From the IMG/VR virus record IMGVR_UViG_3300033146_000804, positions 1-20,561 of that record: 20,561 nt of DNA. One strand, given 5' to 3'. The translations under genes and the position numbers were made by a program. Under the pieces are notes generated by a model that made no database searches, was not told the origin of the DNA, and saw only the letters and a list, made by a program, of their open reading frames with translations. Positions 1,383 through 20,561 of this stretch are shown here, one piece after another. How positions within the stretch are numbered: position 1 is the stretch's first letter; every line of letters begins with the position of its first letter. The DNA comes from a virus.

Positions 1383-2113
1383 TGAAGAGAGAGACGATTT
1401 TATACCGGACGACAGACGACGCGGCAGGCATTGACCTGTCAGGTGCAGATGATCAGGGTGCAGATACTGGTGCAGATACTGGTGCAGATACTGGTGCAGA
1501 TGATCAGGATACTGGTGCAGATACTGGCTCAGGTGATCAGGATACTGGTGCTGGCGATGATAGTGGCACTGATGATGGTGGAGACGGCACTGACGACAAG
1601 TCTGGAGATGACAAGGGCGGGGACGATGAGCCCATTACATATGAAATACCAGAGGCCCTCAAGGAAGTGTTCGATGATCAGGAGACGTTTGACGAAGCGA
1701 CCGAGTTTGCGCGATCCATTGGATTGAATCAGGAGCAATTTGCTGCCACGTTTGAATACCTCATGGATAACGTCAGCGGTAGCTTTCAGGAAAATATCTC
1801 TGATTACAAAGAACAGAACCAGCAGGGACTCAATGCGCTCAGGGAGGAACTGGGCACGACGGCCTACGACAAGACAATGACTGATGCAGCACGGGTGGTT
1901 AATGCCGTTGGTGATCAGGCGTTCGTCGAGTTGTTGGCAAAGAGCGACATGGGGAACAATCCAGTTATGGCGAGATTTCTCGGCAGCCTCGGTGCACTAC
2001 TGAGCGAGGATGGATTGTCGATGGCGGGCGGGCAGGATGAGCCGAAGCCGGTACCCAATGCCGCAGGAGGTGACGACGCACTGGCAAAGAAGTTTTACCC
2101 AAACATGAAATAG
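1382..2113 (+). CDS. Capsid scaffolding protein (putative)
   Basis: A 243-residue, strongly acidic protein directly upstream of the major capsid gene, the normal place for the scaffold that shapes the procapsid and then leaves or is degraded. Residues about 20-80 are a low-complexity Gly/Asp/Thr/Gln run made of GADT and related units, with no fold expected. From about residue 85 comes a more ordered, helical region beginning PITYEIPEALKEVFDD, with predicted helices through LREELGTTAYDKTM. The last residues, LAKKFYPNMK, match the short basic-aromatic tail (lAxxfYPxM) seen at the end of scaffolds in this phage group, where the C-terminus contacts the capsid protein. The ATG overlaps the upstream stop. 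No protease motif was seen. The function rests on position, acidity and the tail motif rather than a clear domain match. Confidence 0.75.
   Translation: MKRETILYRTTDDAAGIDLSGADDQGADTGADTGADTGADDQDTGADTGSGDQDTGAGDDSGTDDGGDGTDDKSGDDKGGDDEPITYEIPEALKEVFDDQETFDEATEFARSIGLNQEQFAATFEYLMDNVSGSFQENISDYKEQNQQGLNALREELGTTAYDKTMTDAARVVNAVGDQAFVELLAKSDMGNNPVMARFLGSLGALLSEDGLSMAGGQDEPKPVPNAAGGDDALAKKFYPNMK
1442..1556 (+). repeat. Tandem 12-bp coding repeat (GADT units) in scaffold gene
   Basis: The unit GGTGCAGATACT occurs in tandem at 1457-1468, 1469-1480 and 1481-1492, again at 1514-1525, and in partial or diverged form on either side, mixed with GATCAGGATACT-type units. The unit is in frame (Gly-Ala-Asp-Thr), so gain or loss of copies would change protein length without a frameshift. 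Confidence 0.85.
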
Positions 2114-2122
2114 GAGTTCAAA

Positions 2123-3160
2123 ATGAAAAACTTACGGTTTATCGATCAGGTTTTTAAGACCGCAACGGTTGGGGATACTGCCCTGACCCTCTCTGACTGG
2201 GCACAACGCCGTGATCCAGATGGCAATACTGCCGACATCGTCGAAGTTCTGGCCCGTACCAACGAGGTCATCGACGACATGCTGTGGGTTGAGTCGAATC
2301 AGGCCACCAGCCATATCTCCACGATCCGGTCTGGGTATCCTTCCGGTACATGGAGAATGTTCAACTACGGTGTTGCTCAAGAGAAATCACGCACCGTGCA
2401 AATCTCTGACGGGATGGGAATGCTTGAGACCTACTCCAAGGTTGATAAGGCTCTTGCCGATCTGAACGGCGACAGTGCTGCATTCCGGTTCTCTGAGGAC
2501 AAAGCATTTATCGAAGGCCTCAATCAGACCTTTGCTGAAACACTGTTCTACGGATCGAAGCTTGAGCCTCAAAAGTTCGTCGGCTTTGCTCCGCGCTATA
2601 ACGACACCCCGCAGGAGACCGATGACCTGCTGAACACATTCAACATCATAGACGCTGGTGGTACTGGTTCCGACAACACCTCGATCTGGCTTGTTGTCTG
2701 GGGTGCCAATACCTGTCACGGCATCTTCCCGAAAGGTGGCATGGCTGGACTGAGCAACCGAGATCTTGGTGAAGATACTCTGACCGACGAGAACGGGAAC
2801 GAGTACCAAGGATACCGGACTCACTACAAGTGGGACTGTGGTTTGACCATCCGCGACTGGCGTTATGTCACTCGGATTGCCAACATCGACGTTAGTGATC
2901 TAACCAAGGATGCCTCCGCTGGTGCCGATCTGATCGATCTCTTGATCCAGATGGTAGAACGTCCCCCATCTCTTGGCATGGGCCGTCCAGTGATCTACTG
3001 TAACCGGACTATCCGCTCATTCCTCCGTCGTCAGATTGTCAACAAGGACAACGTCTACCTGAACATGGACGAAGTTGCTGGTAAGAAGGTGCTGCGTTTT
3101 GACGAGATCCCTGTCCGGCGTTGTGATGCTATTCTGAACACCGAGGCACAGGTAGCCTAA
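2123..3160 (+). CDS. Major capsid protein (GP7 type, HK97-like fold)
   Basis: A 345-residue shell protein of the epsilon15 gp7 / BPP-1 type. The family signature is clear: an N-terminal LSDWAQRRDPDG region, the RSGYPSGTWRMFNYGV segment, then GMLETYSKVDKALADLNGD and AAFRFSEDKAFIEGLNQT leading to ETLFYGS (about residues 97-150). The middle holds WLVVWGANTCHGIFPKG, and the C-terminus ends in a strand-rich region with the typical VLRFDEIPVRRCDAI. Known members form T=7 shells with an HK97-type fold, without covalent cross-linking in epsilon15 and BPP-1, and are locked by a separate cement protein, which is the next gene here. An AGGAG site precedes ATG 2123. The stop TAA is followed in frame by a second TAA nine bases later, created by a short duplication. 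Length is close to the family's usual size. Confidence 0.95.
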   Translation: MKNLRFIDQVFKTATVGDTALTLSDWAQRRDPDGNTADIVEVLARTNEVIDDMLWVESNQATSHISTIRSGYPSGTWRMFNYGVAQEKSRTVQISDGMGMLETYSKVDKALADLNGDSAAFRFSEDKAFIEGLNQTFAETLFYGSKLEPQKFVGFAPRYNDTPQETDDLLNTFNIIDAGGTGSDNTSIWLVVWGANTCHGIFPKGGMAGLSNRDLGEDTLTDENGNEYQGYRTHYKWDCGLTIRDWRYVTRIANIDVSDLTKDASAGADLIDLLIQMVERPPSLGMGRPVIYCNRTIRSFLRRQIVNKDNVYLNMDEVAGKKVLRFDEIPVRRCDAILNTEAQVA

Positions 3161-3194
3161 TTAGCCTAACCACTTTTTTGTAAGGAGAAAGATA

Positions 3195-3602
3195 ATGAAG
3201 AAATTTCTAGCCAAGGTCTTCAAGACCACCATGTTTGACCGTTGCAATACTTTTTGCATCGATGAAGCCTTCACTGGCGACGGCCCCTCGACTGACATTG
3301 TCGATCTTGGGACTAACCCCCAGCGTCACGGTTCCCGCCGTTCGGCATTGATCTGCATTACCGAGACCTTTGCCGGTGCTACAACCATGACCGCCAAGCT
3401 CCAGACCTCCATTGACGAGGCCTTCAGTGTTACCAAGGATGTCGTCTATGAGTCTGACGATCTTGAAGCCGGTGCAAGTATTGAGCTTCCTTTCCCGAAG
3501 GATCTCTTCCGCTATGCCCGTGTTTATTTTGAGTTCGATGTGCCTCCAACCGCAGGCAAGGTTACTGCTGGAATCGTCCTCGACGGTGAAGCTGATTATT
3601 AA
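3195..3602 (+). CDS. Capsid cement (decoration) protein, Bbp16-like
   Basis: A 135-residue protein directly after the major capsid gene, with a strong TAAGGAG site in front of ATG 3195. In BPP-1 and epsilon15 the equivalent protein binds the outside of the shell at the capsomer junctions and stabilises it. Features fitting the Bbp16-type jellyroll are an N-terminal segment FCIDEAFTGDGPSTDIVDLG, then beta-rich stretches ALICITETFAG, TMTAKLQTSIDEAF, a predicted loop, IELPFPKDLFRYARVYFEFD, and a closing strand KVTAGIVLDG. No membrane or signal sequence was found; the basic first 15 residues are not followed by a hydrophobic core. Gene order and strand pattern support the call. A GC-rich hairpin follows the stop. 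Confidence 0.82.
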   Translation: MKKFLAKVFKTTMFDRCNTFCIDEAFTGDGPSTDIVDLGTNPQRHGSRRSALICITETFAGATTMTAKLQTSIDEAFSVTKDVVYESDDLEAGASIELPFPKDLFRYARVYFEFDVPPTAGKVTAGIVLDGEADY

Positions 3603-6549: not shown

Positions 6550-7059
6550 ATGTGGGGAATGATAGCAATGGCAGGCATGAGTATTGCCGGATCGATGATG
6601 CAGGCAGGATCACAATACTCAGCAGCTCAGGCCAACGAAGAAGCAATGCGACGCGAGGCTCGGTACCAGAAGTATAAGTCCATCATGGATGAAAAGCAGT
6701 ACCTTGAGCAGGCGAAAAAGAGCATATCGGAAGGCAACGTAGCCTTTGCCAAGAGTGGCATTCGTCTTTCCAGCGGTACCGTTCAGGAGGTTTTCAGGGA
6801 GAATACCCAGACCATGTTGAATGACGCAGAGATGATCAGGCTACAGGGAGAATTTGCCCAGAGCAAAGCCATGATGGCAGCAGACAACTACAATCGGGAA
6901 GGCAACGCTGCACTCATTGGTGGGATCTTCAACGCTGGGAGTGGTGTTCTTGGGGCCATGAATAAAGGTGGAATGTTCGACAAGACCACCCCGACAACCA
7001 CGACCAAGACCACGGCACCAGCGATGAGCACGAAGAACGGGCCACTCTGGAGACCATAG
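6550..7059 (+). CDS. Small internal virion protein, T7 gp14-like
   Basis: A 169-residue protein starting one base after the nozzle stop, with GGAGG at 6539-6543. The N-terminal 20 residues are hydrophobic and Met/Gly-rich (MWGMIAMAGMSIAGSMMQAG), followed by a long Ala-, Glu- and Lys-rich helix, a GIRLSSGTVQEVF turn and another helix, then a glycine-rich hydrophobic stretch ALIGGIFNAGSGVLGAM. The last 30 residues are a Thr/Pro/Lys tail. This composition and position fit the smallest ejected core protein, which in T7 (gp14) inserts in the outer membrane to start the DNA-transfer channel. The hydrophobic ends fit membrane insertion. Sequence similarity within this protein class is weak, so the call depends mainly on context and architecture. 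Confidence 0.72.
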   Translation: MWGMIAMAGMSIAGSMMQAGSQYSAAQANEEAMRREARYQKYKSIMDEKQYLEQAKKSISEGNVAFAKSGIRLSSGTVQEVFRENTQTMLNDAEMIRLQGEFAQSKAMMAADNYNREGNAALIGGIFNAGSGVLGAMNKGGMFDKTTPTTTTKTTAPAMSTKNGPLWRP

Positions 7060-7069
7060 GGAGAACAAT

Positions 7070-8866
7070 ATGAAAGTACCAATGCTTCAATCTCAGGTAT
7101 CTGCCCCATCGTCGACAGGGTTTACCCCACAGAATTCAGCCAACGCCGGTGCAGCAGTAACGAATTTTGCCAACACCGCAATGGGGGTCATGGAAGATCG
7201 GGAAAAAAGAAATGCCGAGGCCATGATCATGGAGGGTGAGAACCGGCTTCGAGAAAGCAATCGTTCATTCCTGATGGATGCCAAGGTCAACCGTCGCGGT
7301 CGTGGAGCAATGGCCAGCGATGATGGATCGGTCAAAAGCGTCTATGATGATTATAATGAGAAGTCGAGCAAGACCCTCTCAGACCTCGTGGATACTGTGC
7401 CGAAGAGGTACCAGCAGCTCGCCCGTCAAAGATTCAGCGGGATCACCAGCTCTGGGGCCAACACTGTCGCGTCATATCAGTCCGGTCAGGAAGCAATCTG
7501 GCGGGAAGATACCAAGAAAGAAGCCGTCACTCAGGCCGAGAACGATCTTGTTTTTGGTGTGACCAATGGCGACCCAGTCCAATCACTCGACACCGCACTT
7601 GATGAAATTGCGCGGATCTCCAACGTCTATGGCAGCGGGGCCAACAAGGAATATACCAGCATCAAGCAGAGCAACGCCACTGCATCGGCTATCTCATTGA
7701 CCGCGTCAAAGAATGCAGGCATGGCCAGACAGATGCTGGAGCAGAAGAAATATAAGAAGCACCTGTCGATGACTCAGGTCGATAAGCTCAACGGTATCAT
7801 TGAGGGTGAGCAAGACCGTCAGGACGCAGAGGGACTGCTTGCAACCGCCAAGTCTTCCGGTGCCGACTATCAGGCCAGCCTCGAATTGGTCAATGAGTCG
7901 AATGCCAGCGACAAAGCAAAGGGCCTTGCCACGTCCCAGATCAAGCACAACAAAGCAGTGAACGATGAGATCTTCAACGAGCAAAGCTTCAAGTACCTCG
8001 ACATCCTGAGGAACGAGATCTTGGTCGGTGGGAATAAAGCTGGGTACACCCCACTTCAAGTTGAAGTCGATCCAGCGTTTGACATGCTCACCCCTCAGCA
8101 CAAAAAGATTATTCAGGGATGGGTCAAGGGTGATACCGATGGTCTCAAGGCTGGGCAATTTGAGCCGGTCGATAAGGTCAACAGATGGGACTCAATCAGA
8201 CGGCAGATCGACGCTGGGACTATTACCCGATCTGAAATCCTCGCCGGATCTGGAGAAACCCACGACGTTCGCGATACCCAGAAGTTGATCCTTTACTTCC
8301 AGTCACATGGTACCGAAGGGAAGACGGCAGAAGGCAACGCGATCAAGCTGATCGACATGGGCCCATATCGTGGACTCAAAGCAGAACAGCGTTCCCAGAT
8401 CAAATACTCAACCCTCGACGACATCCAGACATGGAAAGAGCAGAACAACGGGATGACCCCGAACGCCGAAACAATCAGGGAAATTGTCAAGCAAAATGCA
8501 GAGCCGATGGTCGATTATTCTTGGTGGGCAAAAACTCTCGGCAACGAGGAAGAGGGCAGGCTACAGGAGCAGTACAAGCAGATCCTTGAGCAGTTCCCGA
8601 ACCTCAACCGTCCTCAGTCTGAGCTATTCGATGAAGGCAAAAAGGTTCCGATCATGCGCCGGATGGCCGTTCATTATCGCCAGTCCGGATGGAAGCAAGC
8701 AACCCCGACCACCGTTGATCCACGGATTTCCATGTTCCTCGGTGAGCCAGAACAGCCTGATGGCTATATTTACTACATGACCGGAGACCGCAAGGTCGGT
8801 GTTCCGATCGGAAGTGATGAAGCAAACTATGTTCTCAGCCTTATTACTGCGGGGATTTCTCAATGA
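7070..8866 (+). CDS. Internal virion protein, T7 gp15-like position
   Basis: A 598-residue, mostly alpha-helical protein with an AGGGAG site before ATG 7070. Residues 1-40 are low-charge and Asn/Ala/Thr-rich (FTPQNSANAGAAVTNFANTAMGVMEDREKRNAEA), then long charged helices with repeated patterns such as VASYQSGQEAIWREDTKKEA and TPQHKKIIQGWVKGD. Near residues 455-500 comes a helical stretch with MVDYSWWAKTLGNEEEGRLQEQYKQ, and the C-terminus is a compact, partly beta region ending GVPIGSDEANYVLSLITAGIS. No catalytic motif or strong transmembrane segment was seen. Its place between the gp14-like gene and the giant gene is that of the second ejected protein (periplasmic tunnel part, T7 gp15). Its stop overlaps the next start (ATGA, 8863-8866). 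The function is inferred from synteny. Confidence 0.68.
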   Translation: MKVPMLQSQVSAPSSTGFTPQNSANAGAAVTNFANTAMGVMEDREKRNAEAMIMEGENRLRESNRSFLMDAKVNRRGRGAMASDDGSVKSVYDDYNEKSSKTLSDLVDTVPKRYQQLARQRFSGITSSGANTVASYQSGQEAIWREDTKKEAVTQAENDLVFGVTNGDPVQSLDTALDEIARISNVYGSGANKEYTSIKQSNATASAISLTASKNAGMARQMLEQKKYKKHLSMTQVDKLNGIIEGEQDRQDAEGLLATAKSSGADYQASLELVNESNASDKAKGLATSQIKHNKAVNDEIFNEQSFKYLDILRNEILVGGNKAGYTPLQVEVDPAFDMLTPQHKKIIQGWVKGDTDGLKAGQFEPVDKVNRWDSIRRQIDAGTITRSEILAGSGETHDVRDTQKLILYFQSHGTEGKTAEGNAIKLIDMGPYRGLKAEQRSQIKYSTLDDIQTWKEQNNGMTPNAETIREIVKQNAEPMVDYSWWAKTLGNEEEGRLQEQYKQILEQFPNLNRPQSELFDEGKKVPIMRRMAVHYRQSGWKQATPTTVDPRISMFLGEPEQPDGYIYYMTGDRKVGVPIGSDEANYVLSLITAGISQ

Positions 8867-11800
8867 ACAATGACCTTTTCCTACCGGATAATGCGATCGA
8901 AGCGAGAGATCCAGTCTCTACCTATCAGGCCTCAAGCGCGATAGATCCAGATCACGCCGCCAAGGTTGAGAAGACTGCACGGACTCTCGGTGCCGACCCG
9001 ATGATGGTCAACCAAGATCTCCAGAAGGCAGAACACGCAGCCAAGCAGCCAGACTGGAAGAAGATGGAGACCGACGCCCCGACCCTGTTTGATAAATCGG
9101 CAGATCCTAATTTCATGGCACGGGCTCAGGACGACCTGAACAACCTGATGGCATTGGAGAAGGCGTTCTACGTTCAGCCGCCAACAGTCAGGCCAGAGGT
9201 AACCCACACTATTCCGGAAAAATTCTGGGCGACAATCAAGCAAGGGTTTGCAGATCAGGCGGTCGCTGGTGCTACCTACACAGATCGGTACGACTTTGAA
9301 AACAAACAAGATAGAGACACTCTTCTCCGGAACATGACTGCTTCCGACAAGATGATCTACCTTGAAAACTTGGGGAAAATATCAGACGAAGAGAGACGTG
9401 CTGATTTCCCTGCCGCACAGAAAAAGGCACTAGAAGAAACCTATAAGAAGGTGAAGGAAGAGTTTACCAAGATTGCCGAACATCCGAATCTGGTTATGGA
9501 CGAGGAGATGAAGAAGTCTGCCAACGTCGTTGAGGATGTTGTCTCTGCAATAGGCTCGTCAATAGCCGGAACAGCGGTCACAATGACAACCGGTGGATAT
9601 GCCGGATTAGCGGTATTTTCCAACCAGATCTATGGATCTCTGTATCGGGAATACGTGAAGACTGTTAGCCCAAAACGTGCCCACCAAGCAGCATTTATCA
9701 ATACCATGTGGCAGGCTCCTCTTGAAACCGCCGGTGGAATATTTGAGTCTAAGGGAGTAAAGAACGCTTTCAAGGGTTTGGCGAAGAAGATCACCAAGGA
9801 CACTCCGGCTAAAGATGTTACCCCAGCAATATTCAAGACTATCTTCAAGAACGCTGGGAAGTCTTTGGGGATATCGATGGCCGGTGAAGGCTTCGAGGAA
9901 TACCTGCAAAATTTCCCCGACGTTTATGCCCAGATCCTTGTCGACAATCCAGACGCCACATCGGCAGAAGCTCTGGTCATGTTCATCAGTAAAATTCCAG
10001 AAACGATGATGTCGAAGGAATCCCTGTACAGCGGGCTGATTGGTGTGCTTGCTGGCGGCGCAACTACCAGCGTTGGTGTAGCAGTATCGGCACCTTTTCA
10101 GGCGGCACAGATCAAGCGGTCGAATGACTTCTCTGCAAAATTAAAAGAGATTCAGGAGATGATCGGAAACTCAACACTGGCCGAAAGAGACGATCAGGCG
10201 TTCGGTGAATTTGCCACTGAGGTCATGGGCAAGGATGGCAACGGGGAGATGTTCTTTCAGGGTGAGGCCCTTACCGAGGCACTTGCCGCGCAGGGAACGA
10301 CCATTGAAGAATGGGGCCAGAAGTACGGGGTTACAAAAACGCAACTCGAAGAAGCACTCACTACCGGTCAAGATCTTTCATTACCGTCTGGCAAGCTTAT
10401 CTCCGGACTCAAAGATGACCCTGTCGTTCAGGCATTGATCGAAGACCTAAAGGTACGACCGGAAGATATCTCCGTGAACCAGCAGGAAGACTTCAAGGCA
10501 ACCACCGAGGCAGAAACTGTCCGGATGCGCGACCTTTATGAGTCTGCCGTGGCAAAAGAATTCACTCCGGATCAGGTCGAAACTTTGACCCAGCAGATCC
10601 GTCAGTCAGCAGAAGCCGCAGGAATCAAAGGTTATACCGAGGAGAACGTCAAAAAACAAACGGCGTTATATATGTCCACCGCCAAGACTTGGGTCGACAA
10701 AGTCAATCAGGCCGGTGGGAATGTCACCCTCGATGATTTTTTCTCCACATTTTCCCTGACCTCAAAGCCAGCGTCTCAAGACATTGCCTTCCAGAAAAAC
10801 GAGGACGGATCATGGAATGTGACTTTGGATGGTCAGACTCAAACGCTGGAAGGAAAGAACCACGTCGAGGCACTATCGACCCATATCAACTCGGTCAACG
10901 AGAAGGCCCAGACCAAGATCGATGCCAACACCGCAGAACTTGAAGCGACCGAAGATCCGGCACGGCGTCAGGCGATCGAGGAAGAGAACCAGACCCTGAC
11001 CAAGCAGATCCAGCGCAACGAAGAGATCGTCAAGGCTGTGACCCACGACGGGCTCTACAATCAGGATGGCACGGTTGATGAAAAGTCGGATGCTTTTGTT
11101 CGGTGGGCCGGTACCAATGACGACGTTGTCGCCCCTGACGAGATCAACTTCCTTGATATTCAGGCCGGTAAAACTTACGTCTTCCGGATGTTCCACGGAA
11201 CGACCCATGAGTTTGAAGAGTTCGACGCCAACAGGGGAAACATTGAGGGATTCGCTGGCCGGACAAATTACTTTACCTCAAGCCAGTATGATGCCGAGGG
11301 AAACTACAGCAACATCGGTGGCCCAGACCTCGCGATGAAAATCACCAACCGCGCAGACCAGATTGAAGACGGGCTCAACGCCGAACTTGAATATGATTTC
11401 AATGGAGATGAAGAGGCGTTTATTTCTTATGCTGGTGCTGCCTATGGCGAGGAGTTTTTTCCGGCAGGATTACCCTATGACGAGCTGTCAGATGCGATGA
11501 ATGAATACTCTTCACGTCAGGCAGAGAAAGAATTTTACGGGGGAAAAGATAAGGTTCTTGAACTGTATGTCCGGACTGACAATCCATTCGTTGTCGACAG
11601 CGTTGAAAGGGTGCAGATCTTTGACGAGGAAGCAATGTGGGATCAGGCCCGTGAGGAAGCAGAAGACCCTGACGATCCAGATTCAATTCAAGACCGGTAC
11701 TATGAGCTGCTTGACGAATTCGATCCCCCGATATTTGACTTCATCAGAAACCTGAACTACGAGGACTTCAATCCGGAAGATATCATTCAGGCAATGATGG

Positions 11801-14800
11801 CAGAGCCGGACATGATGGCCAAGGATTTGTGGAGGATCATCGGTGAAAGTGCTCCGTATGCGTTCGAGGATGAGTCTGGGATGCAGGCAAGTAGCGAGAT
11901 CACCCAGAAGATCATCGAGGAACTGGGGTACGATTCGATTATCCTGAAAGATGCCAACCAGCAATTCATTGGTATGGATATGGAATTCGGCACGGCCCAC
12001 GTTCACATTTTCCACAAGAACAGATCCAACGTGAAGTCGGTCGACAATATCGGCACCTTTGATATTAACGATCCTAATATCTACCATCAGGAAATGTCGA
12101 CCAGAGTACCGGTACCGAAATCAAACATGAACTCGATCGACAACCTGCTGGTTCTGAACTATGACTCACTGCTGGCCAACCCGAAGGCACTGACCAAGAA
12201 CATCGAGGTCATGCTCAGGTCTCCGATATTCAGAGATTTTGCCGGTACCGACAAGCAGAAGGCAGAAAAAATCATCAAGCGGATGGAGGATAACCTGACC
12301 TTCATCTATGAAAATATCCCGCCTGAAATCAGGGACAGATCCAAGCTCTGGTATGACGGGGCCAACAAGATTGCCAACGACTGGGCCGATCGGTACGGTA
12401 TGACTCCGATGCAAGTCTCTGCCGCGATTGCCGTTATGTCCCCACAGAAGGACTGGTTCACCAACCTGTCAGTTGCAGAACGGGCCATCGATATCGTCAT
12501 CGGTCAGCGCATCCACAAGTTCGACGCAAAGATGCAGGAACGGATGATGCGGGACAAAAACTTCAACCGCGAGACCAGAACCGAGAACGTGCTCGTGACT
12601 GCTACGCTGGAAAAGATTAAGAACAAAAGTCTGGCAGAAATTCTGGCCACCGGCAACTTCCAACATGCTGCCGTTTTCGTCCGGATGTTCGACGAGGTCT
12701 ACAACGAGAAGGCCTATTCAGTCGTTACCCCTGAGGGAGGTATAGGCGACACCGTAAAGACCTTAAAAGGAGCAGAGCAGGACGCAGCATGGGGATCTTT
12801 TGGGGAGATTGCAAAGGCCGTTTCTGTCATCTACGACGGGTCAACTGAGAATGTCCATTTCCAACTCGGTGAGAACCACAAGGTTAGAAGTTTCTATAAC
12901 AATATTAATGACCCGAACAGCGTCAACGCTCACACAACTGTCGACACTCATGCGGTTGGTGCGGCACAGTTCAGGGCATTTTCATCCAAGAGCTTTGAGG
13001 TTGCCAACGCATTCGGTGGAAAGGCCAAGGAAGATCCACAGTCCGGCCCTGCTGCGGTAGGAACCGAAGGGCTTCTTGGAACTTACCCCTTCTATCATGA
13101 GGCATATAAGAGGGCCGCAGATAAACTTGGAATCCTCCCTCGCGAACTGCAATCGATCACATGGGAATACAGCCGTGGCCTGTTCGACAAGGGCAACAAA
13201 AATGTGATGAAGGATCAGATCGACGCGGTCTGGAAGCAGTACGAAGAAAAGAAGATCAGCCTTGCCAAGGCCAGAGAGCAGGTCATTGAGATCGCCGGTG
13301 GCGTAGCCGAACCAACATGGGTAGGCACTCCGGAAAATACTGAAATAAAACCGACCTATCGCGGCATGTCCCAGCGTGACGTCGGGAAAATTTCACCGGT
13401 CGAAGTCCAGCTCGAAGTTGCACCGAACCCAGCCAACCTCGGAGCGACAGCAGACTGGAACGCTCTCCCGATGGAGATCCAGAGAACCATCACGGAAGAC
13501 GTTGCGGCCCAGATCGTTCCGGAAGTCCTCAAGGCATTCGAGACAACCGGCACTTATTCGATTCAGGCCGGTGGCTTCATGGGTGGCACCACGCCAAACA
13601 TCGTTCTACAGCTCCAAGATCAGGCCAATGCCGTCCGGATCGCGCAGATGCTGGGCCATGTCCTTGATCAGGCGGGGATGGTTGTCGCCTCGAAATCAGA
13701 GAATCCAACGCTGAAAAAGAATGGTGCCGTGACCATCACCCTTCCTGAGGGTACCTCGACTGAGAAGATCGACGAGATCTACCAGCGTTTATATGCGATC
13801 GAGTACACCAAGAAGGACGGCACCAAGGGCAGCATTGCCGAAGGTCACACGACGGTTGAGAACCAGATGATGATCCTCAACTTTACCGAGATGGACAACA
13901 ACGAGCTTGCCGAGATCGTCGCAAAAGAGACCGGCCTCGAAGTCCAGACCGACAATATCTACTCTGACTATTATGACCAGTACAACTATGAGCAGTCTGA
14001 GTATGAGCTAACCAAGCAGGGCCTGCCGAAACTTGACAAAGAAGGCAAGAAAATAAAGCGGAAAAAGAAACGGACTGACCCGCTGCAACGGACTGCTGAC
14101 ACGCTGGCAGAGAAAGCAACCGAGCTCTACAACAAAAACGTGAAGTCGTTCCAGCCGAATGGTAGCATGGCCCAAGCCAAAGCAGAATCCACTATGCCTG
14201 ATGAGATTGATCTTGGCGTTGGTGGAAGGATGAAGCTTAAGCCGATGTATGAGGGCGAGTTGTATCGGGAAACAAACCTTGAAGGACTTAGCTATCTACT
14301 CACTCAGATTTTCGCTAATACCCCAGAGCAGGGATGGGTCACCGAAAAGTATTTCTCTGACAACGAAGATCTTGCTCTGGGCCAGCATGAAAACAAGGGT
14401 ATCATGATGGTGTTCGATGGCAGGAACATCCACGGAACATCTCCATCAAGCATAGCAAATATGGTTCCAGCCAGCGGTAAAGAGTACAAGAGTGAATACA
14501 TAGGGAGAGATTCTCTCCAGTCATTTGTCGTTCCAAAAGGAAGCAGGTTGAAGGGGTCTAGTAAGGTGTTTGCGTCCAGACACTTTAATAAAAAAGTCCT
14601 TGAAAATGGTGATACTTCTTACACCAAAAAAACAACCAAACCAGAACCGAGTCGATCAGGTGGCGAGAACTTTCCTGCCGATGTGAACTATGTCATGAAC
14701 GGGTTGCAGACCAGAAACGGATTTGTCCGGCTGAACCATTGGGCCAACAGGTCAGATCAGGAAACCATCAATCCAGATATGTACGGGGCCGGAAAGAAGG

Positions 14801-17800
14801 GCGCAGAAGCAAAGCGTCAGGAATCCCCGCACTGGATCAACCGGAGCTACTACGGATTGATCGATCAAAATCCGTACCAAAAAGAAGCCGGTGTTGGTGG
14901 CAACCAATTCGTCTTTGATATCAGGGCCAAGGATCTCTACGACATGACCGGAGATCCCCTCAACCTGAAAATAAAATCGAAAGACTTCGGCACCATCGAT
15001 CATTCACTTTACGAAAAAAATATCAAAGCCGCTGGGTATAAAGGGTACTGGACAAATAGCCCAATGGGTGGAGTGGTTGCATACTTCGAGGAGATCAACA
15101 CCTCAGGGGTGACCGAGGAAACCCACCTTCATGAGGACAAGAAGACCGAGACCAAATCCTTGCAGGCCGTTGTCGTTGAGCAGTATCAGCAGGAATCACG
15201 GGCAGCGATATCTTTCCAGAAAACTCCATCGACGGTGGCCGGTAATATCACCCTGTCGGAGACCGCAGATCTGAGCTCAACCCTCCACGAGATGGGCCAC
15301 TTCTTCCTCGAAATGGTGCGACATACCTATGAGACGACAGGCGCATACTCCGAGGAATGGGCCGTGATCAAGGATTTCCTTGGTGCCGAGGACGGGGTAC
15401 CACTGAAACGTGAGCAGCACGAGAAGTTCGCCAAGGGGTTCGAGAGATATTTGGCCGAAGGTAAGGCCCCCTCGATTGAGCTGAGATCTGCGTTCGACAA
15501 GTTCAAGAGCTGGATGATCAGTGTCTACCGGTCGATCACTCGGATCGGTGAAAAACTTTCTCCGGAAGTCACTTCAATGTTCGACAAGTTGCTTGCGACC
15601 GACGAACAGATCAAGGATGCAAAGGCCTCACAGGGATTGTTCTCGATCATCGATGAGGAGACCAAGGCCCAGTTGTCAGACGCTGAGGTTCAAGATCTTA
15701 TTGAGAAGCTTGACCTGACCGACGAAGAAGCAGCGCGGGCGATGGATATCTACAAGATGCGGAATCTCAAGAAGCGGAGAAAAGAATATACCGAGACCGC
15801 AACCAAGGAATGGAATGCACTGATCTCAACCAGACTTATCAAACTGGCCGGTGAGCGTGGTGGCATTGCCATAGAAGACCGTGACGCCTACGGCGAAGGG
15901 ATGCCGAAGAACGTCGGGCTGTTCAGGGAAGATGGAACACCTCTGCAAGGTCTGGCGATCGAGCTGGATATCTCTCTCAATGAGGCCGTTGATGCCCTGC
16001 TGTTCCATGAGAAAAAAGCGGACTTCGTTTCCAGACGGGTTGAGGAACTTGAGAAACTTCATGATGCCCAGCTCCCAGCCGATGAAGCAATCCACAGCGT
16101 GGCACTGCGTACCCAGATGGAAGCCGAGTCGAAGCTGCTGGCAAAACTTTCCCATCAGGAAAGAGTTCTTGAAAACCGGAAAATCAAAAGGTATGCCAAG
16201 GCACTGATAGGCAAGATGAATGCCAAAGAAGTCCGGAGCATTTCAAAAACCGTGACCGCATTAAGGAAGGCCAGACTCGAAGCCAACCGGCACGTCAAAG
16301 ATGGTGATTACGATAAGGCCTTTGACGCAAACGAGCGGGCCCGAATCCTTGAGCAGGTTATTGTTGAGAAGGTGAAGGCCAGAGATAATTTGCGATCGAT
16401 CATGAAGAGACGCAGCCGGATCTTGAAGCAGATAAAAAATAATCCAGCGGCTTACAATCAGGCCCACCGAGACCAGATCATGAGGCTACTTGCCAGATTC
16501 AGGATCAACGGCGAGAAGCTTATGGATATCGAAGGCAACGTCTCGCTGGCAACATTCTTTGAAGAACTGAACGCGAAGATCAGCACCGATGATTTCCTTG
16601 ATACGATCGGTGGTACTTTCGGAACATACGAATGGCTCTACAATGAAGAGGTTAGATCTGAATTCAAAGAGCTGCCATATGAGTTGGCAACTGGAGTCGA
16701 CGACCTCCTCAAGTTTTTAGCCAAAGATGGCAAGGTCGATAAGAGTGAATACCTAACCGATGGGGAAACAAAGATCCAAGATGTTGTCGACAAGCTGACA
16801 GAAAAAGAAACCGGCACCCTCAAGAAAATTGGTGAATATGCAATCTTCAAGGGGTTGAGACGCTGGCTGAGAAAACATGCCTCTGAGCACGTCTCTCTCC
16901 AATACCTCATGATGCGGATGGATGGATTCGACACCTCGATGAAGGGTGCCAACATGGCCCTATTCTCGAAGCTGTCCAAGGCCGCAGGTGAGCAGCAGGA
17001 TATGCTTGCCGATATGGACTCGAAGCTGAGACCGGCGATGGAACAACTGAGAAAATCTGCCATGAAATATCCGAGGATCTTGACTCATTTCAGGACTCCG
17101 GAGAAATTCACCAACCCAGAAAACAGTGATGTGAGTAAGGAATGGACATTCGATAAAGTCATCGCGGTTGCTCTGAACATGGGTAACCAAGATAACATGA
17201 CCAAGATGGCAGAAGGTTATGGCCTTTCCGTGGAAGATTTGCACGAAATAACGGCCATTCTCTCGAAAGAAGACCTAGAGGCTGTCCAGCAGATCCTTGA
17301 CGCTGTAGAGACGCTGTGGAGCCCTCTGGCGAAAGTCACCAAGAGACTCAAGGGGTTCACCCCAAAACGTGTTGAATATGAGCCCATGACGTTCAGGGCC
17401 GTCGAGGAGCACACTGCTGGTGGCGTTAAGATACCGGCCCGTGGTGCTGTGACAATTAAGGGTGGATACTACCCGTTGAAATTTGACGCGGGAATGTCTA
17501 TCAGGAAAGAGCGGCAGGATGATCGGGCCAATGTTATGCAGGTGCTCAACGGCCTGACCCCGTCGACCAAGACTCCGTCGGGATTCATGATTGAGCGGCA
17601 GGCATCCGCAGGTGGTCTGGCAGTATCTCTGGATATGGGAGTGCTCATCGATCACATCAATCAGGCAATCACCCACATCACCCATGCAATTCCATTGACC
17701 GATGTCGCGAAGGTGATGGGTCACAAAGATTATTATGACGCGGTATCCAATTCCTTCGGTGTTGAGATGGCCAAGAATATTCGTCCGATGCTGGCCCATA

Positions 17801-18906
17801 TTGCCAACCAGCGTGAGGGTGCCAGACTGATGGCCGGTGATGAGCTGGTTCAGGGAGAACGCCACAGGGCAACCGCGTTCATCCTGTTCTACAACACGAC
17901 TGTCGCATTGAAGCAGCCGTTCTCAGCACTGAACTTTATTCACGCGGCGGGAAAAGGTAGCAGCAAGTATCTAGCGAAGGAACTGATGAACTTCATGTCC
18001 AGCGGTGTCCGTCATAACGAGATGATGCAGGCGATCCACGACCTATCCCCAAACATGGCGAGAAGATGGAAGCAGATCGACAGGGACTTGCAGAAACCGG
18101 AAGCATTTGGCCGGATAAGAAAGCCAACCCGTGGAGAATCGATGAAGAGTTACCTGTCGAAACTAACCGAAACAACCGGCCCGATAATGATCAGGATGAT
18201 GGATGCCGCAACTGCATACCCAGCGTGGATGGCTGCCTATAAAATGGAGATGGATAAAAACGGTGGCAACGTCGACGAGGCTGTTTCATTTGCCGACAAT
18301 GTCATTGCAGCAACCCAGCCATTTGACCGGCCACTTGATAAGCCTATCGTCAGATCGAGCAAGGCAGGTCTGGCCGGACTGTTCACAATGTTCACTGGGT
18401 ACACCATAAAGTATGCCAATAGAAGGGCGTTCTATTATGAGGGCTTCAAGACCTACCTGAAAACTGGTGGCGAGTCTGGGATCAGTGGTGTTGACTTCAT
18501 GACCCACGTCTTAATGGAAAGAATACTCCCTTCGATTGCAATGACAACTATGGTAGGATTACTGCATGGAGATCTGTGTGGCGAGGATGGTGATTGCGGC
18601 GCAGACGATGTCCCACAATATGCGATGGATCTGCTGCTGTTCCAATTCGTTGGCCGGTACCTTGTGCAGGATGTCGCGTCACTTGCTGTTTCATTATTTG
18701 GCAAGGGGTACGTCAGGGATCTCGGAACTCCGGTATCGACTGGTGTTGAGGTCACGGCCTATGCAATAAAGAAGGCACTCAAAGATATTGAAAACGGTAC
18801 GTTTGACACGAAGACAACATTGGCTATCGCCAGAGTTCTTGAATATTTTGCACCGGCATTCAAGGTTCCTCATGGAGCCTACGACATGGCAACCGAAGAG
18901 GAGTAA
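8863..18906 (+). CDS. Giant polyvalent internal virion protein (T7 gp16 position), 3347 residues
   Basis: One uninterrupted 10,044-base gene overlapping the upstream stop (ATGA), with GGGGA at 8851-8855. By position it is the third ejected core protein, but T7 gp16 is only about 1300 residues and begins with a lytic transglycosylase, which I do not find here. Domains in order by residue: helical N-terminus with hydrophobic segments near 227-259 and 387-415; ADP-ribosyltransferase-like 765-1076; SPQKDWFTN/VDTHA domain about 1087-1490; orphan domain about 1495-1780; possible second transferase-like domain about 1790-1905; GxGxxGAE domain about 1942-2080; HEMGH metallopeptidase-like domain about 2125-2240; long charged helices to about 2800; a GGYYPLKFD segment near 2867; and hydrophobic stretches at 3167-3186, 3221-3236 and 3257-3280. 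This matches the 'polyvalent protein' idea: virion-carried enzymes delivered with the DNA. Gene reality is certain; domain functions are motif-based. Confidence 0.9.
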   Translation: MNNDLFLPDNAIEARDPVSTYQASSAIDPDHAAKVEKTARTLGADPMMVNQDLQKAEHAAKQPDWKKMETDAPTLFDKSADPNFMARAQDDLNNLMALEKAFYVQPPTVRPEVTHTIPEKFWATIKQGFADQAVAGATYTDRYDFENKQDRDTLLRNMTASDKMIYLENLGKISDEERRADFPAAQKKALEETYKKVKEEFTKIAEHPNLVMDEEMKKSANVVEDVVSAIGSSIAGTAVTMTTGGYAGLAVFSNQIYGSLYREYVKTVSPKRAHQAAFINTMWQAPLETAGGIFESKGVKNAFKGLAKKITKDTPAKDVTPAIFKTIFKNAGKSLGISMAGEGFEEYLQNFPDVYAQILVDNPDATSAEALVMFISKIPETMMSKESLYSGLIGVLAGGATTSVGVAVSAPFQAAQIKRSNDFSAKLKEIQEMIGNSTLAERDDQAFGEFATEVMGKDGNGEMFFQGEALTEALAAQGTTIEEWGQKYGVTKTQLEEALTTGQDLSLPSGKLISGLKDDPVVQALIEDLKVRPEDISVNQQEDFKATTEAETVRMRDLYESAVAKEFTPDQVETLTQQIRQSAEAAGIKGYTEENVKKQTALYMSTAKTWVDKVNQAGGNVTLDDFFSTFSLTSKPASQDIAFQKNEDGSWNVTLDGQTQTLEGKNHVEALSTHINSVNEKAQTKIDANTAELEATEDPARRQAIEEENQTLTKQIQRNEEIVKAVTHDGLYNQDGTVDEKSDAFVRWAGTNDDVVAPDEINFLDIQAGKTYVFRMFHGTTHEFEEFDANRGNIEGFAGRTNYFTSSQYDAEGNYSNIGGPDLAMKITNRADQIEDGLNAELEYDFNGDEEAFISYAGAAYGEEFFPAGLPYDELSDAMNEYSSRQAEKEFYGGKDKVLELYVRTDNPFVVDSVERVQIFDEEAMWDQAREEAEDPDDPDSIQDRYYELLDEFDPPIFDFIRNLNYEDFNPEDIIQAMMAEPDMMAKDLWRIIGESAPYAFEDESGMQASSEITQKIIEELGYDSIILKDANQQFIGMDMEFGTAHVHIFHKNRSNVKSVDNIGTFDINDPNIYHQEMSTRVPVPKSNMNSIDNLLVLNYDSLLANPKALTKNIEVMLRSPIFRDFAGTDKQKAEKIIKRMEDNLTFIYENIPPEIRDRSKLWYDGANKIANDWADRYGMTPMQVSAAIAVMSPQKDWFTNLSVAERAIDIVIGQRIHKFDAKMQERMMRDKNFNRETRTENVLVTATLEKIKNKSLAEILATGNFQHAAVFVRMFDEVYNEKAYSVVTPEGGIGDTVKTLKGAEQDAAWGSFGEIAKAVSVIYDGSTENVHFQLGENHKVRSFYNNINDPNSVNAHTTVDTHAVGAAQFRAFSSKSFEVANAFGGKAKEDPQSGPAAVGTEGLLGTYPFYHEAYKRAADKLGILPRELQSITWEYSRGLFDKGNKNVMKDQIDAVWKQYEEKKISLAKAREQVIEIAGGVAEPTWVGTPENTEIKPTYRGMSQRDVGKISPVEVQLEVAPNPANLGATADWNALPMEIQRTITEDVAAQIVPEVLKAFETTGTYSIQAGGFMGGTTPNIVLQLQDQANAVRIAQMLGHVLDQAGMVVASKSENPTLKKNGAVTITLPEGTSTEKIDEIYQRLYAIEYTKKDGTKGSIAEGHTTVENQMMILNFTEMDNNELAEIVAKETGLEVQTDNIYSDYYDQYNYEQSEYELTKQGLPKLDKEGKKIKRKKKRTDPLQRTADTLAEKATELYNKNVKSFQPNGSMAQAKAESTMPDEIDLGVGGRMKLKPMYEGELYRETNLEGLSYLLTQIFANTPEQGWVTEKYFSDNEDLALGQHENKGIMMVFDGRNIHGTSPSSIANMVPASGKEYKSEYIGRDSLQSFVVPKGSRLKGSSKVFASRHFNKKVLENGDTSYTKKTTKPEPSRSGGENFPADVNYVMNGLQTRNGFVRLNHWANRSDQETINPDMYGAGKKGAEAKRQESPHWINRSYYGLIDQNPYQKEAGVGGNQFVFDIRAKDLYDMTGDPLNLKIKSKDFGTIDHSLYEKNIKAAGYKGYWTNSPMGGVVAYFEEINTSGVTEETHLHEDKKTETKSLQAVVVEQYQQESRAAISFQKTPSTVAGNITLSETADLSSTLHEMGHFFLEMVRHTYETTGAYSEEWAVIKDFLGAEDGVPLKREQHEKFAKGFERYLAEGKAPSIELRSAFDKFKSWMISVYRSITRIGEKLSPEVTSMFDKLLATDEQIKDAKASQGLFSIIDEETKAQLSDAEVQDLIEKLDLTDEEAARAMDIYKMRNLKKRRKEYTETATKEWNALISTRLIKLAGERGGIAIEDRDAYGEGMPKNVGLFREDGTPLQGLAIELDISLNEAVDALLFHEKKADFVSRRVEELEKLHDAQLPADEAIHSVALRTQMEAESKLLAKLSHQERVLENRKIKRYAKALIGKMNAKEVRSISKTVTALRKARLEANRHVKDGDYDKAFDANERARILEQVIVEKVKARDNLRSIMKRRSRILKQIKNNPAAYNQAHRDQIMRLLARFRINGEKLMDIEGNVSLATFFEELNAKISTDDFLDTIGGTFGTYEWLYNEEVRSEFKELPYELATGVDDLLKFLAKDGKVDKSEYLTDGETKIQDVVDKLTEKETGTLKKIGEYAIFKGLRRWLRKHASEHVSLQYLMMRMDGFDTSMKGANMALFSKLSKAAGEQQDMLADMDSKLRPAMEQLRKSAMKYPRILTHFRTPEKFTNPENSDVSKEWTFDKVIAVALNMGNQDNMTKMAEGYGLSVEDLHEITAILSKEDLEAVQQILDAVETLWSPLAKVTKRLKGFTPKRVEYEPMTFRAVEEHTAGGVKIPARGAVTIKGGYYPLKFDAGMSIRKERQDDRANVMQVLNGLTPSTKTPSGFMIERQASAGGLAVSLDMGVLIDHINQAITHITHAIPLTDVAKVMGHKDYYDAVSNSFGVEMAKNIRPMLAHIANQREGARLMAGDELVQGERHRATAFILFYNTTVALKQPFSALNFIHAAGKGSSKYLAKELMNFMSSGVRHNEMMQAIHDLSPNMARRWKQIDRDLQKPEAFGRIRKPTRGESMKSYLSKLTETTGPIMIRMMDAATAYPAWMAAYKMEMDKNGGNVDEAVSFADNVIAATQPFDRPLDKPIVRSSKAGLAGLFTMFTGYTIKYANRRAFYYEGFKTYLKTGGESGISGVDFMTHVLMERILPSIAMTTMVGLLHGDLCGEDGDCGADDVPQYAMDLLLFQFVGRYLVQDVASLAVSLFGKGYVRDLGTPVSTGVEVTAYAIKKALKDIENGTFDTKTTLAIARVLEYFAPAFKVPHGAYDMATEEE
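11155..12090 (+). other. ADP-ribosyltransferase-like (ART-PolyVal type) domain of the giant protein
   Basis: Residues about 765-1076. It opens with VFRMFHGTTHEFEEFD (His778), the first motif of H-Y-E type ADP-ribosyltransferases that bind NAD. FAGRTNYFTSS follows, with Tyr803 in the second motif. It ends with the family's characteristic close: LGYDSIILKD, AHVHIFHKN, VKSVDNIGTFDINDPNIYHQ. Relatives usually have 'vvFdpsQIKS..N.GtFd...PnI' here. An acidic helical insertion lies around nt 11620-11780. The expected third catalytic residue is not obvious (AHVHIF in place of a clear Q/E position), so activity is uncertain. Such domains in phages modify host proteins or nucleic acids; the target here is unknown. 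Confidence 0.8.
12121..13332 (+). other. Helical domain with WY..A, SPQKDWFTN and VDTHA motifs (DUF7178-like)
   Basis: Residues about 1087-1490. Ordered motifs: NLLVLNYDSLL, LWYDGANKIANDWADRYG (Trp1163-Tyr1164), AAIAVMSPQKDWFTNLSVAER (Ser1193-Pro1194, Trp1198, Asn1201), KVRSFYNNI, TTVDTHAVGAA (Asp1361, His1363) and LPRELQSITWEYSRGLF. This motif series recurs in phage proteins, both alone and in fusions; from memory it resembles the family called DUF7178. The helix-SP-W-N and late VDxHA pattern recalls helix-hairpin-helix DNA glycosylases with a late acidic residue, but I cannot confirm that. The function is unknown. Confidence 0.6.
14215..14577 (+). other. Possible second ADP-ribosyltransferase-like domain
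   Basis: Residues about 1785-1905. The order is a strand with Arg (GELYRETNLEGLSYLL, Arg1802), TEKYFSDNEDLAL, strand GIMMVFDG, then KEYKSEYIGRDSLQSFVVPKGSRL (Glu1874 and Glu1878). This resembles the R/H, S/Y and E segments of transferase folds, in which a late Glu before a final strand is catalytic. The match is by pattern only and much weaker than for the upstream domain. Confidence 0.35.
14686..15102 (+). other. GxGxxGAE-type polyvalent-protein domain
   Basis: Residues about 1942-2080. Motifs: FVRLNHWANRS, INPDMYGAGKKGAEAKRQ, NRSYYGLID, QFVFDIRAKDLYDMTGDPLNL, then KNIKAAGYKGYWTNSPMGGVVAYFE. The series 'HxS...P..yGtG.kGaE..R...Y.Y......LYD...DPL...aGY.GY......v..F' recurs in large phage proteins. 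Its fold and reaction are not known to me. The opening strand with His and the closing GYxGY segment look like a diverged NAD-using transferase, which is speculation. Confidence 0.55.
15235..15582 (+). other. HEMGH zinc-metallopeptidase-like domain (MPTase-PolyVal type)
   Basis: Residues about 2125-2240. SSTLHEMGHFFLEM gives the zinc-binding HExxH at His2142-Glu2143-His2146. About 41 residues later, EKFAKGFERYLAEGKAPS offers a glutamate ligand (Glu2187, less likely Glu2194), the gluzincin arrangement. The following FDKFKSWMISVYRSI helix also fits the polyvalent-protein metallopeptidase family. All key residues for zinc binding and catalysis seem present, so it may be active. It could cleave host proteins, process the giant protein itself, or act on peptidoglycan peptides. 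Confidence 0.82.
18361..18702 (+). other. C-terminal hydrophobic segments of the giant protein
   Basis: Three hydrophobic stretches, GLAGLFTMFTGYTI (from residue 3169), ILPSIAMTTMVGLL (from 3221) and LLLFQFVGRYLV...ASLAVSLFG (from 3257), are separated by an acidic loop with CGEDGDCGADD. They could be membrane-inserting helices used when the protein crosses the inner membrane during ejection, or buried core helices. The sequence alone does not decide this. Confidence 0.45.
18898..18903 (+). promoter_or_regulatory. Shine-Dalgarno of the tail fiber gene inside the giant gene's last codons
   Basis: GAGGAG encodes the last two Glu residues of the giant protein and sits six bases before ATG 18910, so it decides the fiber start. 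The only bases between stop and start are CTT. Confidence 0.65.
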
Positions 18907-18909
18907 CTT

Positions 18910-20561
18910 ATGACAGTTTTAGGAACAAGGACGAGACAGACATTCGACGTTATTGGCGGCAAAGACTACGACCTTGCTTATGATTTTCTGTTCTTGGAGC
19001 CGGAAACATTATTCTGTATCCACACAAAGGATGACGGCACGACTGTTGAACTGACCTATGGAACTGACTACACCGCGACCGGTGGCAACAGTCAGTCCGG
19101 TACCGTTCACACTGTAGAGGTCTTGGTCGGTGGCACACTTACCGTTTATCGAGACGTTGAGGCTATCCAGCAATATGATGCCCGCGTTGGTGATGGGTTC
19201 AATACCGATACTTTTGAGCGTCAACTTGACCGGATGGTCATGGCAATTCAGGAGGCAGGATCAGGGTCTGTACTCGGTCTGAGGCTTCCGTTCAACACTC
19301 CAGTGGACGTGTCTAATGTGCTTGAGCTACCAGAGGCTGGGATGTATGTGAGGTGGGATGCTTTTGGTAAAAAACTAGTCAACGTCAAAGGTACTGTTCA
19401 GTTGAACCTTTTCACCCCAACGACCGCAGTTGAGTATCCAGATACTGGTGATATTTTCAACGCCGCGTTCTGGGTTATCAGTGGACTGGCAGGGACGTAC
19501 ACATGGCAGGCCGGAGATCTCCAAGGCAAGACCGGAGAGAACGGTGACTTCATGGTCTGGGATTTGTCTCACTGGCATCTCGTGGAGAACAACCTTCGGT
19601 CAGAATATTTCTACTACCTCGACGGGTCTCAGCCTCTGACTGCCGACTTTCAGGCAGATGGCCATAGACTGACTCACGTTGGCCCAGCAGTTGATCTTGA
19701 CGACGCTGTGGTTCTCAGACAGTTCGATGGGGTCGGCAACTTCTTCGTGAAAATCGCCGGTGACGAGATGAACGGAAATCTGGTCGTCGGGAAGGCTCAG
19801 GCCAACGCAAATATCAGTATTACTCCGGTTGACGACCAAGGATATTCCTCTATCATTCTCAGGGACGGATCTGGATTTTCACGGGCCACATGGTACGTCA
19901 GAAATGATATCGATTATGCGGCACTCCAGAAGCAGAACGCCGCCAATCAGACCACCTGTGAAGTGGCTCTCATGGACAACGGGAACTTGCAACTGCAAAT
20001 ACCTGCCACTCCGCAGCATGATTACGACCTCGCAACCAAAAAGTACGTTGACGAAAACTCTACCGGTGACGATGTCTTTACCAAGGCAGAGCACATCGAC
20101 GCAAGCACAGGAACCGGCGACGCTGCAAAGCCAATCATCCTGAATTCTCAGGGCAACATTGATCCATCGATGCTTGACGTCAGCGTGTTCTACTTCGTGA
20201 GTGATTTTACCCCGACCGCTGGCACTGAATATCCAAGTACCACCGGTGAATCTTACGGTGCCTTCTGGGTCGTTCAGGGACTTGCTGCTGACTATACCTT
20301 CGTTGGTGGAGACCTCGCCGGAAGAACAATAGCCAATGGCGACTTCATGGTCTGGGCCGCAGCAGGCTGGTCGATCATGGCTGGTGAGATGAATCCTGCT
20401 CTCTACTACCGACTCGATGGTACTCAGGCCCTCACCGAAGACTTTGCCGGTGGTGGAAAAGAACTCACAAATATCGCCGATGGAACAGCAGCCAACCATG
20501 CAGCAACGGTCGGGCAGTTAGACGCTGGGCTCAGTGGTAAGCTTGACACAGATGGGGTGGC
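18910..20561 (+). CDS. Tail fiber protein, N-terminal part (runs off the right edge)
   Basis: The frame is open from ATG 18910 to the window end, at least 550 codons, with no stop. Residues about 5-115 resemble the virion-anchoring N-terminus of T7 gp17-type fibers: a beta-rich start (FDVIGGKDYDLAYDFLFLEPETLFCIH), VELTYGTDYTATGG, GTLTVYRDVEAIQQYD, then GFNTDTFERQLDRMVMAIQE, where fibers switch to a trimeric helix. Typical fiber shaft motifs follow: AGDEMNGNLVVG (Gly284-Asp285 on), PQHDYDLATKKYVDE (Asp373-Asp381) and AATVGQLDAGLSGKLD. A block of about 107 residues occurs twice. The receptor-binding tip would lie beyond the window. The place after the ejection genes fits a fiber carried on the tail side. 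Specificity cannot be read from this part. Confidence 0.85.
   Translation, partial: MTVLGTRTRQTFDVIGGKDYDLAYDFLFLEPETLFCIHTKDDGTTVELTYGTDYTATGGNSQSGTVHTVEVLVGGTLTVYRDVEAIQQYDARVGDGFNTDTFERQLDRMVMAIQEAGSGSVLGLRLPFNTPVDVSNVLELPEAGMYVRWDAFGKKLVNVKGTVQLNLFTPTTAVEYPDTGDIFNAAFWVISGLAGTYTWQAGDLQGKTGENGDFMVWDLSHWHLVENNLRSEYFYYLDGSQPLTADFQADGHRLTHVGPAVDLDDAVVLRQFDGVGNFFVKIAGDEMNGNLVVGKAQANANISITPVDDQGYSSIILRDGSGFSRATWYVRNDIDYAALQKQNAANQTTCEVALMDNGNLQLQIPATPQHDYDLATKKYVDENSTGDDVFTKAEHIDASTGTGDAAKPIILNSQGNIDPSMLDVSVFYFVSDFTPTAGTEYPSTTGESYGAFWVVQGLAADYTFVGGDLAGRTIANGDFMVWAAAGWSIMAGEMNPALYYRLDGTQALTEDFAGGGKELTNIADGTAANHAATVGQLDAGLSGKLDTDGV
19411..19731 (+). repeat. Tail fiber module, copy 1 (about 107 codons)
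   Basis: Residues 168-274: FTPTTAVEYP...AAFWVISGLAGTYTW...GDLQGKTGENGDFMVWD...YYLDGSQPLTADFQADGHRLTHV. It shares layout and many residues with copy 2 at 20206-20529. Similarity is at protein level; the DNA has diverged, so this is an old duplication. Confidence 0.8.
20206..20529 (+). repeat. Tail fiber module, copy 2 (about 108 codons)
   Basis: Residues 433-540: FTPTAGTEYP...GAFWVVQGLAADYTF...GDLAGRTIANGDFMVWA...YYRLDGTQALTEDFAGGGKELTNI. It aligns with copy 1 almost without gaps. GDFMVW and LDGxQxLTxDF are the best conserved parts. It leads into NHAATVGQLDAG, a common fiber linker motif. Confidence 0.8.

Follow-up and report, generated by a model that had tools for sequence, protein, structure and literature searches.

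The 3347-residue protein encoded in the window (the whole of the 20,561-base IMG/VR virus record IMGVR_UViG_3300033146_000804, positions 1 to 20,561) belongs to the polyvalent proteins, a class described by Iyer, Burroughs, Anand, de Souza and Aravind (Iyer et al., 2017; PMC5512222), and its source virus is an uncultured podovirus, a relative of Bordetella phage BPP-1. We consider it probable, with good confidence, that it is a phage protein of the same type as Bbp10 of BPP-1, in which a delivery chassis encloses a cargo bay of swappable enzyme domains and a peptidase sits at the junction. The class is known; what goes beyond it is the measured chassis-and-cargo pattern together with a probable DNA glycosylase cargo, a variant that we regard as worth testing. 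Gene structure, synteny, homology, domain order, catalytic-type residues and the pattern of fixed and variable lengths are established directly. The features to which we refer are as follows.

6550..7059, + strand: gene for a gp14-like internal virion protein (phrog_418, E 1.2e-17)
7070..8866, + strand: 598-aa ORF at the bbp11 position of BPP-1 (no family; weak phmmer matches)
8863..18906, + strand: polyvalent protein gene, 3347 aa (single open frame; syntenic homologues in BPP-1, Carin1, AF, Jess A and others)
8863..10782, + strand: N-terminal chassis, residues 1–640, helical (common to BPP-1-like relatives)
8923..9171, + strand: LPD22 domain, residues 21–103 (PF18834, E 1.9e-15, above the gathering score)
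11155..12072, + strand: predicted ART-PolyVal ADP-ribosyltransferase, residues 765–1070 (PF18760; conserved triad H778, Y803, D1024)
12160..13362, + strand: DUF7178, residues 1100–1500, candidate HhH-GPD-like DNA glycosylase (PF23802, E 3.6e-19; 56-sequence alignment)
13396..14007, + strand: tandem ferredoxin-like domain, residues 1512–1715 (AlphaFold model; Foldseek; 16 relatives)
14185..14637, + strand: rare domain, residues 1775–1925 (only in Thalassomonas phage BA3, 46%, and contig L020)
14695..15162, + strand: second ART-like domain, residues 1945–2100 (H1959, Y at 1996/1997; twelve relatives, iterated HMM)
15220..15732, + strand: zincin-like metallopeptidase, residues 2120–2290 (HEMGH at 15286–15300, residues 2142–2146)
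15730..18903, + strand: C-terminal chassis, residues 2290–3347, long helices (phrog_9880, E 1.6e-144; alignment with 13 phages)
18910..20559, + strand: tail fibre gene, truncated by the window end (phrog_1640, E 4.9e-10)

An earlier note, made from the sequence alone, had described a single 10-kb gene for 3347 residues, and one frame is indeed open from the ATG at 8863 to the stop codon at 18904–18906, with no internal stops; the stop-free stretch spans 3361 codons, whereas 20 rounds of shuffling the window's bases gave 236 at most. The ATG shares bases with the stop codon of the preceding ORF (ATGA, 8863–8866), and the fibre gene, whose phrog_1640 match is to the fibre N-terminus, begins just 3' at 18910. 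Upstream are genes for a portal protein (Head-tail_con, PF12236), a scaffold-protease-like protein (phrog_458), a GP7 major capsid protein (PF20911) and Bbp16, followed by genes for the tail proteins phrog_394 and phrog_376, then by the gp14-like gene and the 598-aa ORF. This order matches that of BPP-1, where bbp10 (2052 aa) occupies the position of the giant gene, and the same order is found in Cobetia phage Carin1, Pseudomonas phages AF and HU1, Caulobacter phage Jess A, Vibrio phages and others. The scaffold/protease-like gene (window 1379–2113) has a TTG start with an ATG immediately after it, and its product carries a low-complexity GADTGADDQ-type stretch near the N-terminus. End repeats were sought in the 20,561-base window and none was found, and Megablast of the window against phages gave no matches, as did NCBIfam and PADLOC searches. 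Alignments were required to search the viral contigs, since single-sequence queries from the cargo or the C-terminus returned nothing usable.

Assignment to the polyvalent class rests on three features of the protein and its surroundings. At least two disparate biochemical domains, by predicted activity, lie in one polypeptide (ART-PolyVal, zincin, DUF7178), which bears out the proposal in the earlier note that several distinct enzyme-like domains are joined here. Domains of the class repertoire (LPDs, ART-PolyVal, MPTase) are represented by LPD22, by ART-PolyVal in the aligned relatives and by the HExxH zincin. The gene also lies among late virion genes, as expected of the phage type, with portal, capsid, tail and gp14-like genes upstream and the fibre gene downstream.

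Residues 1–640 and 2129–3347 match Bbp10-type proteins, while the region between is mostly without match. The hydrophobicity of the N-terminal chassis reveals one strongly hydrophobic segment, near residue 390. Among 84 complete relatives, the N-terminal part ends between residues 468 and 755 (CV 0.07) and the stretch from the peptidase to the C-terminus measures 1176–1440 aa (median 1252 aa, CV 0.04), whereas the cargo interval between them can be as short as 72 or as long as 2399 aa (CV 0.69), and 96% of the variance in total length lies there. The relatives, which are not a random sample, were collected through matches to DUF7178 or the C-terminal part, the best 80 being taken per scan; these criteria do not constrain the length of the middle. 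Pfam domains in the relatives' cargo interval include ART-PolyVal, PBECR5, GGDEF, RadC, GNAT, LPD23 and DUF7178. The protein has two fixed structural ends and an exchangeable middle.

Some database records of relatives have peculiarities of their own. Limnohabitans phage DC33 (PQ492659) is labelled Inoviridae, yet its 39-kb genome encodes a 3125-aa Bbp10-type polyvalent protein, and the taxonomy looks wrong. In phage zth2-2 (OL791268, a record marked unverified) the polyvalent frame breaks shortly past the circular junction, as if there were a sequence error there. The record of Vibrio phage 1.185.O (19060–19277) has four 'CRISPR spacers' annotated within a protein-coding phage gene.

The relatives of DUF7178 number at least 588 in viral contigs and 19 in genome contigs. 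The domain is found in its smallest form in cyanophage S-CBP42, as a 198-aa protein (PF23802, E 4.9e-48), which matches the window's domain with an hhalign probability of 99.8% (E 3e-28) and is itself matched in 155 phage records. Solo genes for the domain (L213, 30543–31139, and L214–L223) occur in cyanophages, roseophages, actinobacteriophages and a Salinibacter virus, and several of the copies are labelled 'glycosylase' in GenBank. Several of those examined are among the first genes at the record end (P12053L gene 02, CRP-1 gene 03, A-4L ORF03 and Dorin gene 6). Early genes often lie near a genome end, and by this analogy the placement that solo genes can have fits a role soon after DNA entry.

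One lysine and one aspartate (K1340, 12880–12882, and D1361, 12943–12945, in the window's protein) are present without exception in 56 polyvalent and 11 solo sequences, the former within G-x-(x-H)-K and the latter within V-x-x-D-x-H, where the surrounding positions are invariant or nearly so. In an AlphaFold model of residues 1092–1728 (pLDDT 88.6), which covers DUF7178 and the ferredoxin-like domain, the lysine, just past a tight turn, is predicted to begin one helix and the aspartate to begin the next (model helices 237–244, 248–258 and 271–278). In HhH-GPD glycosylases a lysine stands at a helix start after a tight turn and an aspartate opens the next helix. The elements that mark these enzymes, a helix-hairpin-helix followed by a conserved aspartate, with a lysine in the bifunctional members, can accordingly be recognized in DUF7178 so far as motif and secondary structure go. 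Foldseek aligned the model with AGOG, an 8-oxoguanine glycosylase, at a sub-significant E of 0.40, and a profile of the solo family found three matches in all in the PDB. All three are 8-oxoguanine DNA glycosylases/AP lyases (best E 0.049); the aspartate is in register and the lysine one column off.

Against this must be set the possibility that DUF7178 is some other helical enzyme acting on DNA or nucleotides, a reading that we find somewhat doubtful although it deserves to be taken seriously. Comparison by hhalign with bacterial HhH-GPD proteins was not significant (probability about 1% at best); the long polyvalent alignment scored no better than reversed or shuffled controls, and the solo alignment, while in the right register, scored barely above shuffles. 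No Pfam HhH-GPD was among the families listed for 67 DUF7178 members, and the first alignment made of DUF7178 yielded nothing useful when searched against PDB sequences. That other reading leaves unaccounted for the predicted helix-turn-helix, with lysine beginning the second helix and aspartate the one after, and the agreement of the hhalign register, the only PDB matches and the Foldseek match to AGOG, all of which point to HhH-GPD. Weighing the invariant residues, the helix layout and the AGOG and PDB matches against the non-significant profile-profile scores, we lean towards DUF7178 being an HhH-GPD/Ogg2-type DNA glycosylase, a prediction from alignment and model in which the individual similarity scores are sub-significant. 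It is like the Ogg2/AGOG glycosylases in the order of its conserved elements, with the lysine in the hairpin-helix and the aspartate before the next helix, and unlike them in the long insertion of the polyvalent-protein form and in a similarity that falls below significance.

The placement of the giant gene bears on a second alternative, namely that the protein corresponds in function and evolution to T7 gp16 and is a trans-envelope tube protein with acquired domains. The earlier note had set it in the place of the ejected core protein gp16, and that account of the gene order holds: the gene comes after a gp14-like ejection gene and a further small gene and precedes the fibre gene, a placement that speaks for this alternative. 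Homology to T7 gp16 did not find support. Family searches gave no gp16 or transglycosylase match, a profile of the C-terminal half had no meaningful match in the PDB, and the lysozyme of the relatives is encoded in the preceding gene. In the window that slot, where relatives encode a virion lysozyme (Bbp11, 'structural lysozyme'), is occupied by the 7070–8866 ORF; its weak phmmer matches among relatives are to the gene that immediately precedes the giant one (best E 3.5e-4), and no lysozyme or transglycosylase domain was detected in it by family searches. We therefore regard a gp16 counterpart as unlikely.

The earlier note had also named a transferase-like and a metallopeptidase-like domain, and both are recognizable, the one in the ART triad and the other in HEMGH. 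In the window's protein the first ART matches PF18760 at E 0.0084, below the Pfam cut-off, while its aligned relatives exceed the ART-PolyVal cut-off and H778, Y803 and D1024 are invariant with them; the His, Tyr and Asp that the HYD clade carries in strands 1, 2 and 5 are thus present at residue level, as read from the alignment. The second ART-like domain may be so called from its residue pattern and twelve relatives, its third catalytic residue not being conserved; there was no Pfam match in three relatives scanned, and a PDB sequence search with the ART-like region gave nothing useful. The rare domain before it is possibly an ART of the R-S-E type, judged by eye. A model of residues 1738–2290 (mean pLDDT 71) had no useful fold matches by Foldseek, and no zincin was among the matches listed for this 553-aa model.

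Residues 1512–1715 gave Foldseek matches to SAM lyase, ACT, RRM and HemQ folds. The match to T3-type SAM lyase (probability 0.99, TM 0.57, E-value 0.24) is a likeness of fold; unlike that enzyme, the domain has no conserved glutamate where Svi3-3 has its catalytic Glu69, and many unrelated ferredoxin-like folds match it as well. Assignment as a SAM lyase was rejected because 17 sequences show no conserved acidic residue at the Glu69 equivalent. The domain directly follows DUF7178 in 15 of 16 relatives, and this adjacency suggests that the two work together.

The peptidase motif HExxH is retained in 105 of 110 relatives, with HExxHxxx[DE] in 79 of the 110, and a second HE motif is invariant in the alignment. 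The window's HEMGHFFLE supplies both the HExxH and the downstream acidic residue expected of a zincin-like MPTase of the CLCA_X kind. The equivalent region of Bbp10 is published as a CLCA_X zincin, Bbp10 700–1000 being among the seeds of that family (PMC3650047). The window's domain is like CLCA_X in that this seed overlaps the part of Bbp10 aligning from residue 2108 and in the acidic residue four positions past HExxH; it differs from the family in being embedded in a larger protein, and is predicted from sequence. A peptidase profile matched SPRTN weakly (E 0.44).

These residues also weigh on a third alternative, that the protein is mainly structural, serving in ejection or assembly, and that its embedded domains are degenerate and act as non-catalytic spacers or fold units. 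Both ends are mostly helical, as such a protein might be, and the loss of a conserved third residue from the second ART-like domain would be in keeping with degeneration. The near-universal HExxH, the intact triad of the first ART and the invariant lysine and aspartate of DUF7178 are difficult to reconcile with it, however, as is the variation of the cargo among relatives from GGDEF cyclases to RNases, and we consider it quite improbable.

The domain order of the window's protein occurs in one other viral contig, L020. In a single frame, at about 59–65% identity, L020 encodes the C-terminal part of the first ART, DUF7178, the ferredoxin-like, rare and second ART-like domains, the peptidase and the C-terminal chassis; it is truncated at its 5' end, and the comparison covers the order from the first ART onwards. 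The unusual length might raise the suspicion that several genes were joined by a frameshift, a fusion or an error of assembly, which can be dismissed, since L020 has the same order in one frame, relatives reach 4254 aa and there are no internal stops. The earlier note had not recognized the order from a described phage; the class, however, is described, Bbp10 of a classical phage is a homologue and L020 shares the order.

We infer virion packaging, injection and all of the enzyme activities, and our working hypothesis for the chassis-and-cargo protein is as follows. The conserved N- and C-terminal parts would form a chassis for packaging and for passage into the cell. The cargo would comprise an ADP-ribosyltransferase, DUF7178 (most likely a glycosylase of HhH-GPD type), and the tandem ferredoxin-like, rare and second ART-like domains. 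The zincin, at the junction of cargo and C-terminal chassis, probably cuts the protein and so releases the cargo, whether ahead of delivery, in its course or afterwards. Inside the cell, host proteins would be the targets of the ART, and bases of incoming or host DNA those of the glycosylase-like domain, prior to the expression of any phage gene. In the published model (PMC5512222), phage polyvalent proteins are packaged in the virion and delivered with the DNA, and their domains are released by the MPTase; the late-gene context, the peptidase beside the cargo and the exchangeability of that cargo fit this model, and the suggestion in the earlier note of an effector set that would be delivered with the DNA agrees with it. 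More tentatively, and as no better than a possibility in our estimation, BPP-1-like podoviruses may share a standard two-ended chassis with a peptidase and an exchangeable bay, one cargo of which would be a virion-delivered DNA glycosylase acting before expression, the same enzyme being encoded by other phages as a separate gene.

If the chassis works as we suppose, it would constitute a modular system of protein delivery, made by nature and clearly bounded. Position in the protein would then show what hundreds of related phages carry as cargo, and this could be screened for enzymes of anti-defence or takeover. A phage-delivered DNA glycosylase would, if true, add base excision to what phages do in the immediate-early stage, an idea that the 198-aa solo forms of DUF7178 make testable in a simple assay.

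Compared with the polyvalent proteins of PMC5512222, the protein is alike in its unrelated predicted enzyme domains in one chain, its LPD, ART-PolyVal and zincin MPTase, and its late virion-gene context; it differs in the putative glycosylase domain, absent from that text, and the fixed two-ended chassis with a bay of variable length, measured here, is a description not found in the parts of it consulted. The N4 virion RNA polymerase and its relatives are likewise giant and carry an MPTase domain, some of them also an ART, with a virion association that here would be by inference (PMC5512222); unlike the N4 enzyme, the 3347-aa protein has no detected RNA polymerase domain. Bbp10 of BPP-1 (NP_958679) is shorter, at 2052 aa, and its cargo interval of about 230 aa is too short for the domain set found here. 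The two genes are nevertheless syntenic, and their products, whose N-terminal parts are similar, can be aligned from the peptidase almost to the C-terminus, a length of some 1,070 residues with about 23% identity.
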